A DNA stretch of 64,000 nt, taken from contig NZ_CP018787.1 in assembly GCF_002127965.1 (NCBI RefSeq), positions 1,984,001 to 2,048,000 on the forward strand, read 5' to 3'. The translations under genes were made by a program, and so were the position numbers. The DNA comes from Oxalobacter formigenes. GTDB lineage: Bacteria > Pseudomonadota > Gammaproteobacteria > Burkholderiales > Burkholderiaceae_D. Within the stretch, counting starts at the first letter, position 1. Every line of letters starts with the position of its first letter. Shown in pieces: positions 47,267 to 62,562 of this stretch. The notes beneath the pieces are model-generated. The model searched no databases. It worked only from the letters and a program-made list of their open reading frames with translations, and was not told where the DNA came from.

Positions 47267-48733
47267 ATGAACTCAGGGGAATATCCTTTCAGGGATCTCA
47301 AACCCGCTTCCGTCTGGAAACACTTTGCCGAACTGTGCCGTATTCCACGACAATCCAAGCACGAAGAAGCCGTCAGGGATTTTCTGAAGCAATGGGCAAG
47401 CAGTCAGGGACTGGAAAATCGGGTCGAGGCGGGCGGAAACCTCATCATCAAAAAACCGGCAAGCGCCGGATATGAAAACGCACCCGGTGTCATTTTGCAG
47501 GCGCATCTGGATATGGTCTGCCAGAAAAACGAAGGGGTCGAACACGATTTTTCAAAAGACCCGATAAAGCCCGTCGTACGTGACAACCTCGTTCTCGCCG
47601 AAGACACGACCCTTGGTGCGGACGACGGTATCGGCGTTGCGCTGATACTGGCTGCCTTCGAAGACAAAACGCTTGTCCACGGCCCTCTTGAAGCCCTCCT
47701 TACCGTTGACGAGGAAGAAGGTATGGGCGGCGCCAACAAACTGGAAAAGAACGTCCTTTCCGGAAAAATCCTGTTGAATCTGGACAGTGAAACATGGGGC
47801 GATTTCTGCCTTGGCTGTGCCGGTGGCGCTGACGTCATTGTCCAGCGAACCGGGCGCGCCGAACCTTTCCCGACGGCATGGAAAGCGTTGAAGATCGACA
47901 TCAGCGGATTGCGTGGCGGTCATTCGGGCATCAATATCCATGAAGGCCGCGGCAATGCCATCAAGTTGTTGACGCGCATTTTATGTTCGCTGGAAAGACA
48001 GTTTCCACTCTGCCTGTCCAGTTTCACAGGCGGTACCGCCCGAAACGCCATTCCACGTGAAGCGTCTGCCGTCATTGGCATTCAGGAACAGAACATGATT
48101 TCGGTCAGTGGCCTCTTGCAAAAATGGCAAGACCGTATCATGACAGAACTGGCTGGCGTCGATGAAGCTTGCCAGATCAAATGGAGTACCACCTCCGCAG
48201 ACAAAATCATGTCCTCTTTCGACCAGCGCATCTGGCTGCTTTCCTTGAATGCAGCGCCGCATGGCGTCTGGCGCATGACTGCCGGAACCTGTTCGCCGGA
48301 AACGTCCAACAATCTCGGTACGATCAACCTGCAATCCGACACGGGAACCTGTACCTTCATGGTCCGCTCTACGATCGAAAGCGCATGCAATGCCCTGACA
48401 GGGGAAATCATCAGTCTCTTCATGCTCTCAGGCATCCAGCCGAGACGTGAAAACGCCTATCCCGGATGGGCACCTGATATGAATTCTCCCCTTCTCGCCT
48501 TGTGCCGCCAGATATACAAACGTGAATTCGGCAGCGAACCGGCAACCCACATCATTCATGCCGGGCTGGAATGCGGCATCCTGAAGTCCAAATATCCTGA
48601 ACTGGACATGATCTCTTTTGGCCCGACCATTCACAGCCCGCACGCGCCGGGTGAATCCGTTGAAATCGATACGGTTGAAAAATCCTGGCAATTATTGCAG
48701 GCCTTGCTGAAAGCGATCGCCATCAAAGCCTGA
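47267..48733 (+). CDS. pepD: aminoacyl-histidine dipeptidase (peptidase D, M20)
   Basis: Cytosolic di-zinc dipeptidase of the M20C family, 488 aa, cleaving X-His dipeptides including carnosine. Metal ligands lie in QAHLDMVCQKN, TLGADDGIGVALILAAF and VDEEEGMGGA; the lid domain (GLRGGHSGINIHEGRGNAIKLL) and C-terminal His motif (TIHSPHAPGE) follow. GAGGA is upstream of ATG. A strong terminator ends this single-gene unit. Confidence 0.94.
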   Translation: MNSGEYPFRDLKPASVWKHFAELCRIPRQSKHEEAVRDFLKQWASSQGLENRVEAGGNLIIKKPASAGYENAPGVILQAHLDMVCQKNEGVEHDFSKDPIKPVVRDNLVLAEDTTLGADDGIGVALILAAFEDKTLVHGPLEALLTVDEEEGMGGANKLEKNVLSGKILLNLDSETWGDFCLGCAGGADVIVQRTGRAEPFPTAWKALKIDISGLRGGHSGINIHEGRGNAIKLLTRILCSLERQFPLCLSSFTGGTARNAIPREASAVIGIQEQNMISVSGLLQKWQDRIMTELAGVDEACQIKWSTTSADKIMSSFDQRIWLLSLNAAPHGVWRMTAGTCSPETSNNLGTINLQSDTGTCTFMVRSTIESACNALTGEIISLFMLSGIQPRRENAYPGWAPDMNSPLLALCRQIYKREFGSEPATHIIHAGLECGILKSKYPELDMISFGPTIHSPHAPGESVEIDTVEKSWQLLQALLKAIAIKA

Positions 48734-48750
48734 AAAAACAATTCCATGAA

Positions 48751-48790
48751 AAAGGACTGCACGAAAATAATTCGTGCAGTCCTTTTTTTT
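48751..48790 (+). terminator. terminator after pepD
   Basis: 15-bp stem from AAAGGACTGCACGAA to its complement, loop AATAA, then T-run. Confidence 0.93.
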
Positions 48791-48860
48791 ATTCGTTTAG
48801 CTTCGGTCTCTGGCCATTGGAAAACAGTTACGCTCTTGAAAAACAACTCAAACATCCCGA

Positions 48861-49193
48861 TCACCAGCCCGACCGTCTGGCCGAAAGCGCCCGGTAAAAA
48901 GCGGCTTCATTGTCCCAGAGGGAACCGGAATCGATTTTCCCTTTTTCCAGCTCAGCCAAAAATCCCCGCAAAGCCTGACCGGTTACAAAACGGATGCCAC
49001 TCGTCGTCTCAGGATTCAGCCATGCATCAGGATCGTTCCCGTACCAGCCGATTGCATTATCACCACCCAGCAGACGGGCAACATCCTTGGCAAGATTGTC
49101 CGGATTGTCATACACATGGCAAAAATCGTCGCCGTCATCGGCAACCTGCAACTGGCAATACCCGCTGGCATAAAAAATAACGCAAACCTCCAT
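48861..49193 (-). CDS. conserved-looking hypothetical protein
   Basis: 110 aa, not recognised. CGGAG lies 7 bases before the ATG. Composition is acidic with many aromatic residues (VADDGDDFCHVYDNPDNLAKD, WYGNDPDAWLNPETTSG). The C-terminus is amphipathic helical (GQALRGFLAELEKG). No signal peptide or membrane segment; cytosolic. No neighbour gives context. Confidence 0.6.
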   Translation of the reverse strand: MEVCVIFYASGYCQLQVADDGDDFCHVYDNPDNLAKDVARLLGGDNAIGWYGNDPDAWLNPETTSGIRFVTGQALRGFLAELEKGKIDSGSLWDNEAAFYRALSARRSGW

Positions 49194-49405
49194 AAGCTTC
49201 TCCGACCGTTTTTAAACCATTCATCCATCATATATGAAAACGGGACGGGGAAATAAGATTCGCAAGACGAAACATTGAGGACAGATTTGTGCAACCCCGC
49301 CTGCCTCTGCCTTGCATGGAAAGAAATTCCCCACACAAGAGATACTGTTTTTTCGGTAACCGGTAAAGAAATTTCGTACCGCTTATAGAATAGGGAGCCC
49401 TATCC

Positions 49406-49504
49406 TTACATCACATTCAGGGGAAACTGGGAACAGGCAATTACCACAACAATCGAAGCGATAAAGATCAGTGCATCCATCATTTCGGAAACAAGGTTTT
49501 TCAT
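49406..49504 (-). CDS. 32-aa single-span membrane peptide, candidate SOS-induced peptide
   Basis: Begins MKNLVSEMMDALIFIASIVV and ends VIACSQFPLNVM. The segment ALIFIASIVVVIAC is a clear membrane span. AAAAGGAG lies at good distance before the ATG, so translation is well supported. Just upstream are two LexA-like palindromes overlapping a plausible promoter (-35 TTTACA, 17 bases, -10 CATAAA). This arrangement is like SOS-controlled small membrane toxins such as TisB (29 aa) and DinQ (27 aa) in E. coli, though there is no strong sequence match. It is too short for ordinary gene callers. Function is inferred only. Confidence 0.7.
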   Translation of the reverse strand: MKNLVSEMMDALIFIASIVVVIACSQFPLNVM

Positions 49505-49522
49505 TTTGGATTCTCCTTTTTG

Positions 49523-49542
49523 TACTGTTTATGCATCCAGTA
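49523..49542 (-). promoter_or_regulatory. LexA-like box 2 of the 32-aa peptide gene
   Basis: TACTGGATGCATAAACAGTA on the minus strand: outer arms TACTG/CAGTA are perfect; 15 of 20 positions match the umuD box. It overlaps the presumed -10. Confidence 0.65.
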
Positions 49543-49547
49543 TATCA

Positions 49548-49567
49548 TACTGTAAATAAAAACAGTG
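49548..49567 (-). promoter_or_regulatory. LexA-like box 1 of the 32-aa peptide gene
   Basis: CACTGTTTTTATTTACAGTA on the minus strand; the opposite strand matches the umuD LexA box at 17 of 20 positions. Centre-to-centre distance to box 2 is 25 bases. It overlaps the presumed -35 (TTTACA). Confidence 0.8.
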
Positions 49568-49683
49568 TTTTCTTCATGCAACACAAAAAGAATCACTTTC
49601 AAATGGAAGAAAGTCTGTAAAAACAAAGCGAATCCAATAAAAAGCCCTTGCAGACAAGACAGACGAAAAACCGCGAAGACATA

Positions 49684-49717
49684 AAAAAACCTCCCGTTCG
49701 TTTGAACGGGAGGTTTT
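49684..49717 (-). terminator. terminator after the 255-aa hypothetical gene
   Basis: Stem AACCTCCCGTTC / GAACGGGAGGTT with a 4-base loop, flanked by A- and T-runs. It may act in both directions. Confidence 0.9.
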
Positions 49718-49736
49718 CAATACAGGGCAGCAAGTA

Positions 49737-50504
49737 TCAGTTTTCTGTACTCAACAAACCGGAATAACTGATATAAGCCTTGTCACCGCGATAGATAGGC
49801 AATGGTTTTTCCCCTTCTTTCAGCGGTTCTTTCACATTCTGGTTTTCGTTGGCGAAAGTGACATAGGCAAAGGTACCCTTTGCTTCCTTGGAGGCATAAG
49901 CGTCTTCAATTTCCTTGATGTTATCCGGAATTTTCGCTTCGGCAGGCCAGCGAACGGCCTGTACAACGACCCATTGCGGAAATTCTTCGGTACTGATCCA
50001 GATGGAAGGCTGCAATTCAGGATTGCTGACCCATCCGGCGACGTGTTCGCCTTCATGCATCAGATTCTGACGAACGACCTGAACGGCAAAATCGTGCAGT
50101 TCCCAATCCGTCATTTCGATTTTTTCATCTGTGACCAGATCAGGCGGGTTCACCGGCTTTTTATCGACAGCTGACAAAAGGCCCCAGCCCTTTTCTACTG
50201 GCATCCAGTTTCCGAAAGAGAACCTCATCGGCATGATACAGGCATGACCTTTGCACCCCTCTGCGATTTTGATCAGATTTTCGTCTGTTCCAGGGACTTT
50301 CAGTTCATTGTCAACATCTATAACGCGAACGAAAAACAGCTGGTTACCGAGTCTGAAAGACAGATGTTCCATAAACGGTTCATCCAGTGACGCCCTCATC
50401 CACGTCAGGCCGCCTTCAACCTGACTCTGCAAATGGCGACCGGCAGACTGCCAGCACTGTTTGAAATCATCCGTCACTTTTATTGGTTCTTCCTGATTGG
50501 CCAT
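49737..50504 (-). CDS. hypothetical cytosolic protein (255 aa)
   Basis: Not recognised. Soluble, mixed alpha/beta, Trp-rich (HLQSQVEGGLTWMRASLDEP, NWMPVEKGWGLL, GWVSNPELQPSIWISTEEFPQW). There is no signal peptide. It is followed by a strong terminator and preceded, after 99 bases, by a membrane protein on the same strand; the two may be co-transcribed. The start has only a weak purine stretch (GAATAATC) upstream. Confidence 0.65.
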   Translation of the reverse strand: MANQEEPIKVTDDFKQCWQSAGRHLQSQVEGGLTWMRASLDEPFMEHLSFRLGNQLFFVRVIDVDNELKVPGTDENLIKIAEGCKGHACIMPMRFSFGNWMPVEKGWGLLSAVDKKPVNPPDLVTDEKIEMTDWELHDFAVQVVRQNLMHEGEHVAGWVSNPELQPSIWISTEEFPQWVVVQAVRWPAEAKIPDNIKEIEDAYASKEAKGTFAYVTFANENQNVKEPLKEGEKPLPIYRGDKAYISYSGLLSTEN

Positions 50505-60811: not shown

Positions 60812-62074
60812 TTACTGACATTCCGCCAGCTCATCCCACGATGTCGTATATCGCGGGGAAACCCTGTCCACCTTCGGACGCCAGCGCCGGTGCATCATAT
60901 CGTCCTGCGACAGACGTAATGTCCCGTTCCCGAAACGGTCATTGATCTCGTCCATGACCTGCATGATCTTCCGTCTTTTCGGATCGGTGAACATGTCCGG
61001 ACTGAAAACCGACTCAGGCGACAATTCACTGACACACGCCCCCGCCTTCCTGTATTCGTATCCCGGCCTGAAAATCCGGTGCAACCCCATCATGGCGTAG
61101 CGGTTGATCTCAATCGTACTGTTCGTCGCGTCGATCAGCGGCAAACTGACATGAGGATGATATTGCGGCTTGTCTTTCCTGAACCGGTCAGTCATGAGGA
61201 ATACATGCACCATCCCTGCAATGGAATGCTGCCTGCGGAGCTGCTTGCCTATTTTCGTCGCATGAAAAGCGATGGCGTTTTCCAAATCGTCAATTTCCGT
61301 TATCACCCCGCCAAACGAACGGCTGGAGAGAATCTGTTTTTTGGGTGGACTGACATCGACCATATCGATACAGGAAATCCCCCGGAGTTCGGAAATCAGC
61401 CGTTCCATGACAACCCCGTAGCGTGAGCGCATCGTCCGGATATCCGCTTCCCGCAACTGGTACACCGTTTCAATGCCACGGCTGATCAGCGAGCGGTTCA
61501 GGCGACGGCCGACACCCCAGACTTCATCGATCGGGATCTGTTTCAGCAAGCCGGATTTCTGCTGTTCGGTCAACACATTGTAATGAAACACGCCCTTTGA
61601 CCGGGGGTGTTTCTTCGCGACGTAATTGGCCAGCTTCGCCAGTGTCTTGGTCGGCCCGACACCCACGCAAACCGGTATGCCGATCCTTTTCGCTACCGTT
61701 TCCCGAATGGCGACCATCCGCTCTTTGACATCGTCGAAACCGGTCAGATCCAGAAACGATTCATCGACACTGTACACTTCCTGAACGGGTGAAAAATCCG
61801 CCAGCAGGTATTTCACCCGGTTGCTCAAATCCGAATACAGAGGGAAATTGCTTGAAAACACGACGACATCCCGGTATTTCGGCAAATCCTTCACCTTGAA
61901 CCAGGGTTCCCCCATCCGGATGCCCAGCGCCTTCGCTTCATTGCTGCGCGCAATCGCACACCCGTCATTACTGGACAGGACAATCACCGGTTTCCCCTCC
62001 AGATCGGGACGGAAAACCCGTTCGCACGAGACAAAAAAATTATTGCAATCGACCAGAGCGAGATTCTTTTCCAT
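60812..62074 (-). CDS. umuC: DNA polymerase V catalytic subunit UmuC
   Basis: Y-family translesion polymerase, 420 aa, close to E. coli UmuC (422). Catalytic motifs: LALVDCNNFFVSCERVF with the first Asp, VYSVDESFLDLTG with the SxDE box, and the palm/thumb segment GVGPTKTLAKLANYVAKKHP. The C-terminal little-finger domain and UmuC-specific tail (HRRWRPKVDRVSPRYTTSWDEL) are complete. It follows umuD by 31 bases on the same strand; both are probably under the LexA box at 62543. Confidence 0.95.
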   Translation of the reverse strand: MEKNLALVDCNNFFVSCERVFRPDLEGKPVIVLSSNDGCAIARSNEAKALGIRMGEPWFKVKDLPKYRDVVVFSSNFPLYSDLSNRVKYLLADFSPVQEVYSVDESFLDLTGFDDVKERMVAIRETVAKRIGIPVCVGVGPTKTLAKLANYVAKKHPRSKGVFHYNVLTEQQKSGLLKQIPIDEVWGVGRRLNRSLISRGIETVYQLREADIRTMRSRYGVVMERLISELRGISCIDMVDVSPPKKQILSSRSFGGVITEIDDLENAIAFHATKIGKQLRRQHSIAGMVHVFLMTDRFRKDKPQYHPHVSLPLIDATNSTIEINRYAMMGLHRIFRPGYEYRKAGACVSELSPESVFSPDMFTDPKRRKIMQVMDEINDRFGNGTLRLSQDDMMHRRWRPKVDRVSPRYTTSWDELAECQ

Positions 62075-62105
62075 CGTTTTTCAAATCACCGTATGTTCAC
62101 ACGTT

Positions 62106-62528
62106 TCAAATCAGTTTGCGGATACTGGCCGTAACCACTCCCCATATCTGCAATTCACGTCCTTCCGTCAATTCAAGCGGCCGGTATTTTTCATTTTCCG
62201 GCATCAGGCGAACCGTCCGTCCGCGCTTGTACAAACGCCTTACCAGATACTCCTGATCGGCCACCCCCAGCACGATATGGTTATGCTGTGGATCGATCGA
62301 ACGGTCGACGACAATCGTATCCCCCTCATAAATGCCGATCCCTTCCATCGAATCCCCTTTCATGCGAAACAGGAAAGAAGAACAGGGATTGACCAGCAAT
62401 TGCGCATTCAAATCGACCATCGTATTGGCTGAATCGGTATGCGGAATGGGAAAACCGGCGACAGAAGTATTTTCAATCCGGTTACGGGTAATGGAATCGG
62501 ACAATTCCGGTGCCGGAGAGCGTCTCAT
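62106..62528 (-). CDS. umuD: UmuD, LexA-like self-cleaving subunit of Pol V
   Basis: 140 aa from ATG 62528, chosen because GAGG lies 7 bases upstream; a TTG further upstream is rejected. With this start the cleavage site is Ala24-Gly25 (TSVAGFPI), the same position as in E. coli UmuD. The S24-peptidase Ser is in MKGDSMEG and the catalytic Lys in LVRRLYKRGRTVRL. RecA-stimulated self-cleavage yields UmuD'. Co-transcribed with umuC. Confidence 0.94.
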   Translation of the reverse strand: MRRSPAPELSDSITRNRIENTSVAGFPIPHTDSANTMVDLNAQLLVNPCSSFLFRMKGDSMEGIGIYEGDTIVVDRSIDPQHNHIVLGVADQEYLVRRLYKRGRTVRLMPENEKYRPLELTEGRELQIWGVVTASIRKLI

Positions 62529-62542
62529 AATGAACCTCAAAT

Positions 62543-62562
62543 TACTGTAAATATATACAGTA
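62543..62562 (-). promoter_or_regulatory. LexA (SOS) box upstream of umuDC
   Basis: TACTGTAAATATATACAGTA, an almost perfect match to the proteobacterial LexA consensus, 15 bases before the umuD ATG. It gives the local SOS-box reference for this genome. Confidence 0.92.

Follow-up and report, generated by a model that had tools for sequence, protein, structure and literature searches.

A probable LexA-controlled gene of Oxalobacter encodes a single-span membrane peptide, possibly a SidA-like division checkpoint

A 64,000-nucleotide stretch of DNA (the window) from Oxalobacter formigenes, of a genus of oxalate-degrading gut bacteria, very probably contains a genuine SOS gene whose peptide family is confined to the genus. 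This judgment follows from conserved LexA-type boxes, purifying selection on the frame, a conserved island of promoter and frame, and the presence of LexA. Our preferred reading, to which we give a probability of roughly 0.4, is that of an autonomous LexA-repressed gene whose product, an inner-membrane peptide of 30–32 aa, would dock on the septal complex and delay division in the manner of SidA.

The genome that contains the window is a single contig of 2.47 Mb. The parts of the locus are as follows.

49406–49504, minus strand: peptide frame, ATG start, 32 aa plus stop, MKNLVSEMMDALIFIASIVVVIACSQFPLNVM; a predicted single-span membrane peptide
49513–49520, minus strand: putative Shine-Dalgarno AAAAGGAG, read from the sequence
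49523–49542: LexA box 2, CTG-N10-CAG core at 49525–49540 (CTGGATGCATAAACAG on the minus strand), covering the proposed -10
49548–49567: LexA box 1, CTG-N10-CAG core at 49550–49565 (CTGTTTTTATTTACAG on the minus strand), covering the proposed -35
49528–49556, minus strand: proposed sigma-70 promoter TTTACA-17-CATAAA, a by-eye reading
49685–49718, minus strand: terminator-like hairpin 3' of the upstream gene, from a terminator scan

The initial annotation had noted the minus-strand frame and placed both boxes at these same coordinates. Read by eye, TTTACA occupies 49556–49551 inside box 1 and CATAAA 49533–49528 inside box 2, with a spacer of 17 bp; this position predicts a transcription start at about 49521, some 17 nt ahead of the ATG. 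A promoter consensus scan of 49200–49800 listed zero promoters on either strand. The two box cores are 16-bp palindromes whose starts are separated by 25 bp. The upstream gene is on the same strand and ends in the terminator-like hairpin, which separates it from the peptide gene, so the latter appears to stand alone. Downstream lies a 110-aa frame with no Pfam family at E ≤0.001. One of the four neighbor genes scanned encodes an M20 peptidase, and the other three had no Pfam family at the cut-off.

A LexA domain was detected in 11 of 13 genus genomes, including all seven good assemblies. Because the domain model also matches distant controls, LexA of the window genome was checked separately, and both LexA domains are present. 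LexA-type boxes were found at recA, between uvrA and ssb (names that we assigned from sequence) and at umuDC. They also lie upstream of lexA at eight of the nine lexA loci scanned (CTGGTTAAATTAACAG in the window genome), the exception being the lexA locus of G003, where the box is absent. The umuD/umuC pair, separated from the peptide gene by about 11 kb, occupies 60812–62560 on the minus strand of the window and has a near-perfect LexA box at 62545–62560; the frames behind this box encode a Peptidase_S24 (UmuD-like) protein and an IMS polymerase (UmuC-like). The sequence features of a LexA regulon, namely an operator over the promoter, LexA itself and the same operator at core SOS genes, are therefore all present.

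Compared with the umuD 20-mer (62543–62562), box 1 matches at 17 of 20 positions, a value already given in the initial annotation and reproduced on recomputation, and box 2 at 15 of 20. Scanning of the 64 kb with the E. coli LexA consensus, with up to three mismatches allowed, returned two sites, box 1 and the umuD box, versus 0.05 expected. A score matrix was built from 15 hand-picked genus boxes at recA, uvrA/ssb, umuD and lexA; boxes of the peptide gene were kept out of it, as was a weak lexA box from G009. Box 1 ranked second in the window and scored 21.2 bits, within the 16.6–24.6 range of the training boxes, whose scores are favored because the same boxes built the matrix. Box 2 ranked fourth and, at 10.8 bits, was weak relative to that range. 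In every relative the second box scored higher than in the window, at 22.8 (G011), 20.4 (G009), 13.6 (G004) and 15.7 (G010). Close box pairs at the score of box 2 numbered one in the window and zero in each of 30 Markov sequences. Simple motif counts gave a different picture. CTGT-N8-ACAG is barely commoner in the genome than its reversed control (51 versus 46), and a tighter genus-wide box pattern matched 72 places versus 58 for its control. A loose double-box pattern gave 15 matches in nine of 13 genomes; six were the peptide locus in four genomes, and unrelated places were hit in seven of 13, with two matches for the control. Single-box counts and loose double boxes thus weaken the motif argument taken alone, and the case for the boxes rests on sequence quality and conservation, not motif count.

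Homologous peptides were found in five of the 13 genus genomes, the window's own included, and in three of the seven good assemblies (G000, G010 and G011). The other four genomes match the window peptide at about E 0.005 or better, and a profile search added no genus member below E 0.1. Their records, named by a scan with a pattern built from the five known peptides, are O. paraformigenes HOxBLS, an O. formigenes metagenome bin and two Oxalobacter sp. bins. Identity to the window peptide is 45–60%, and the G004 and G010 peptides are identical. All five have aligned starts and lengths of 30–32 aa (G011 with two consecutive ATG codons) and share 12 invariant columns: M1, S6, E7, D10, L12, F14, S17, V20, V21, I22, Q26 and P28. 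The frame is intact in the four other genomes that have the peptide, and at least two boxes lie upstream at all five loci, which bears out the gene proposed in the initial annotation; no further box of the same grade was found in 2.6–3.1 kb per locus. In the window, as in G011 and G009, the two boxes are spaced by 25 bp. G004 and G010 have a good outer box and, 54 bp away and nearest the gene, a poor box with five mismatches; G004 also has a third, poor box.

In Nei-Gojobori counts over 28 codons, pN was lower than pS for each of the ten pairs, with dS saturated in two. Across these codons the closest pair, G004 and G010, differs by six synonymous and zero amino-acid changes. These counts indicate that the frame evolves under purifying selection. 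Among the window, G011 and G009, identity is 73–76% over the box region and 64–72% over the frame, and only 33–48% over the 60 bp above the boxes and over the 50 bp immediately past the stop. By this measure, promoter and frame form a conserved island amid drifting flanks in these three genomes. The window and G004 are 68% identical in the frame and 45% in the promoter alignment, their boxes being differently spaced. No such contrast can be drawn between G004 and G010, which are too similar, with 91% identity in the frame and up to 89% in neighboring DNA; from -140 to -80, the site of the outer box, they are 77% identical.

Eight of the 13 genomes lack the peptide. Four of these (G002, G005, G008 and G012) are less than 90% complete, so some absences may be gaps. 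In G003 (L053:1-1100), two neighbor genes are separated by about 45 bp that hold neither a peptide frame nor a LexA-type box, which we read as an empty site arising through loss or predating gain. The remaining seven peptide-less genomes had no match to the 110-aa neighbor either. Wider searches gave weak matches beyond the five peptides. In a set of 100 genomes, 43 gave something at E ≤10, the best beyond the five being E 0.11. A family survey of 392 genomes drawn evenly from a larger group gave 14 genomes with a match at E ≤0.1, consisting of the five and nine others at E 0.03–0.09, seven of the latter with the match in a frame of at least 75 residues. Four short-frame matches (31- and 34-residue frames plus two from the 100-genome search) were rejected as sequences unlike the peptide family, and their loci had no LexA-type box within six mismatches in 1.2 kb. 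A candidate from the same family (G017, E 1.57) has an internal stop and was dropped as a member. Matches to the window peptide were absent from 50,697 phage and 72,556 plasmid records, and one strict degenerate pattern found no peptide in viral contigs; a phage or plasmid origin is not backed by these searches.

AlphaFold predicts one helix spanning residues 2–31 (mean pLDDT 86, pTM 0.42). The best 17-residue Kyte-Doolittle mean is 2.6 for the window peptide and 2.5–2.7 across the five, in agreement with the one strong membrane span initially described. Among 242 ATG frames of 25–45 aa in the window, the peptide alone reaches a mean of at least 2.5, a threshold picked after its own value had been seen. 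Each peptide has two to four acidic residues; four of the five have no Lys or Arg, and the window peptide has only K2. Conserved positions 7, 14, 21 and 28 share one heptad face with 10, 17 and 24. The helical moment is weak and varies with the angle assumed (p ~0.02, 0.04 and 0.12 at 98, 100 and 102.9 degrees). Nor is the strongest period, 180 degrees, a helical one. No Pfam model matched at cut-off; CydS (E 0.053) and PGG (E 0.059) appeared below it, each for one member. NCBIfam and solved structures gave no match, and PHROGs gave one chance-level match for one member (E 0.15). Overall, the gene, its operators, the helix and selection on the frame are supported at the level of sequence.

Known SOS peptides offer several points of comparison. 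E. coli TisB, a LexA-repressed 29-aa peptide forming one helix (PMC8309996), is similar in size, helix and LexA-type control. It differs in its alternating Asp/Lys strip, absent from the Oxalobacter peptides, and in its control by IstR-1 at a standby site (PMC8309996), none being seen at the Oxalobacter locus. The peptide's Pfam/NCBIfam matches included no TisB model, in libraries that possibly hold none. In E. coli, the promoter of the gene for DinQ, a 27-aa single-span peptide, is overlapped by two LexA operators (PMC3567139), an arrangement shared with the Oxalobacter gene. DinQ is, however, subject to the antisense RNA agrB and to mRNA processing, and its predicted frame starts 139 nt from the operator (PMC3567139); its residues include K4, K9 and a patch of E17, R20 and Q24 (PMC8309996); the Oxalobacter gene shows no antisense sign, has a predicted leader of only ~17 nt and in four of five cases encodes no Lys or Arg. 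No DinQ model was among the peptide's Pfam/NCBIfam matches. The description of type I toxin-antitoxin products (tisB/istR, dinQ/agrB) as small single-span membrane peptides does fit the Oxalobacter peptide.

SidA of Caulobacter crescentus is a 29-aa inner-membrane SOS division inhibitor that acts on FtsW, and the available text on it likewise mentions no antitoxin RNA (PMC4211646). Both SidA and the Oxalobacter peptide are single-span molecules of about 30 aa under SOS-type control, as judged for Oxalobacter from its boxes. The likeness is one of size, span and regulation, and the Oxalobacter function proposed here is drawn by analogy. LexA sites of Caulobacter are of a different type from the Oxalobacter boxes. 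SidA, which the initial annotation had omitted, is an analogue as close as TisB or DinQ. YneA, SosA and ChiZ are also DNA-damage-induced small membrane division inhibitors; YneA targets FtsW, and the division step affected by SosA and ChiZ is a late one (PMC6051672, PMC13396833). The use of small membrane proteins to block a late division step has been described as widespread among SOS responses (PMC13396833), and where a partner of such a small SOS protein has been described, it mostly seems to be a divisome part. YneA and ChiZ have a LysM domain and SosA an extended helix, whereas the Oxalobacter peptide has little beyond a span.

In the mechanism that we propose, two LexA dimers would sit on the -35 and -10 and silence the gene until RecA-driven LexA cleavage opens the promoter. 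The exposed Shine-Dalgarno would permit prompt translation, and the peptide would enter the inner membrane as a single helix. Through invariant side chains (including S6, E7, D10, F14, S17, V21, Q26 and P28) it would then dock on a membrane partner, the likeliest being the septal wall-synthesis complex (FtsW/FtsI/FtsN), and division would be held for the duration of DNA repair, in the manner of SidA. A specific partner is suggested by the fixed S6, E7, D10, S17, Q26 and P28. SOS induction, the identity of the partner and the division block are what we infer. SulA (PF03846) was found in none of the 13 genus genomes, with a positive E. coli control, and the window peptide itself did not match PF03846. 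Together with polar invariance, the lack of SulA in 13/13 favors a SidA-like division-checkpoint peptide over a depolarizing toxin. The same eight genomes lack both the peptide and SulA, so the peptide would not be strictly needed. More tentative still is a narrower proposal, that of a span-only, acid-tipped SOS checkpoint helix of Betaproteobacteria acting on FtsW or a neighbor, under a tandem LexA operator and free of antitoxin, which would mean that the SidA strategy had been invented independently.

The initial annotation had suggested a TisB/DinQ-like depolarizing toxin, perhaps with an antisense RNA. Such a toxin would act through self-assembled or lipid-perturbing helices that let protons through, thereby reducing ATP and giving rise to dormant survivors; in the version weighed here, the double LexA operator would do the silencing in place of an antisense RNA. 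Size, single span and LexA-type control agree with this, as do the paired operators over the dinQ promoter (PMC3567139), and nothing beyond size and regulation was found in its support; we regard it as rather unlikely. The peptides without Lys or Arg contrast with TisB, which has D5, K12, D22 and K26 (PMC8309996), and polar positions seem more fixed than a generic pore should need. No antitoxin came to light either: Rfam gave no family at gathering score in 48700–50100, the flanking DNA that might harbor an antitoxin gene is unconserved among the window, G011 and G009, and no mRNA-pairing repeat common to the three loci searched was found. An inverted repeat (49506–49521/49622–49637) was taken as chance because it is absent from the relatives searched (L002 and L003). 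With the promoter scan, these searches gave no sign of the antisense RNA, although one could be encoded elsewhere or read from a non-consensus promoter. The predicted leader is short and folds no better than shuffles, which would set the gene apart from tisB and dinQ, both of which use processing as well as antisense RNA (PMC3567139, PMC8309996).

Invariant polar residues would suit partner binding equally if the peptide were a small LexA-controlled regulator or subunit belonging to some other membrane complex (a respiratory enzyme, transporter or protease), and one of the five members has a sub-threshold CydS match. That match is far under the cut-off (13.9 bits versus 25) and confined to a single member, on which grounds a CydS-like subunit was rejected, and no linked partner gene was seen among the four neighbors scanned; a partner outside the divisome is in our estimate improbable. 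Far more so is the idea that the operators are real but the frame is not the product, which would be a small regulatory RNA, or that the frame is fortuitous. Although the terminator scan listed none 3' of the frame and the gene is known from sequence alone, codon-level selection, aligned starts and similar lengths in five genomes argue against it, as do an RNA fold no better than shuffles and conservation that ends after the frame. Chance as the origin of frame or boxes was rejected on the consensus scan, the matrix pair test, codon selection, the conserved island and hydrophobicity.

Returning to the division-checkpoint reading, the peptide, at about 30 residues and with five genomes supplying natural variants, offers a compact test object for distinguishing division block from depolarization. 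Of the earlier claim of a new SOS peptide, SOS-type control of a single-span peptide is well supported by boxes, frame and LexA, and SOS induction is the part that stays conjectural. As a sequence family the peptide appears new; as a kind, the SOS single-span peptide was already known. We found no report of SOS peptides in Oxalobacter in open-licence literature, and the main text of the Oxalobacter species revision (PMC9812493) has no word starting with SOS or toxin. Because Oxalobacter is under study for use against kidney stones (PMC9812493), its DNA-damage response is of some practical interest.

Further LexA-controlled short membrane frames were sought in 47 stretches around CTGT-N8-ACAG sites (30 + 17, overlapping), part of the 72 genus-wide pattern places; no other frame of <80 residues with a span-like stretch was found under the filters used. 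Four peptide-less Oxalobacter genomes carry a 187–188 aa frame that starts 31 bp past the start of a LexA-type palindrome, e.g. CTGTAAATATTTACAG, with copies at L112:1454-2048 (G001), L118 and L070 (G006), L106 (G007) and L109 (G012). The G001 copy is a PF12917 YfbR-like 5'-deoxynucleotidase, and the frame is possibly an SOS-controlled nucleotide hydrolase. In G006 (L104), a minus-strand frame starts 23 bp past the start of a LexA-type box, CTGTCTTTTTATACAG (1436–1451 in plus-strand coordinates), and its beginning presumably resembles a YqaJ-type phage recombinase.
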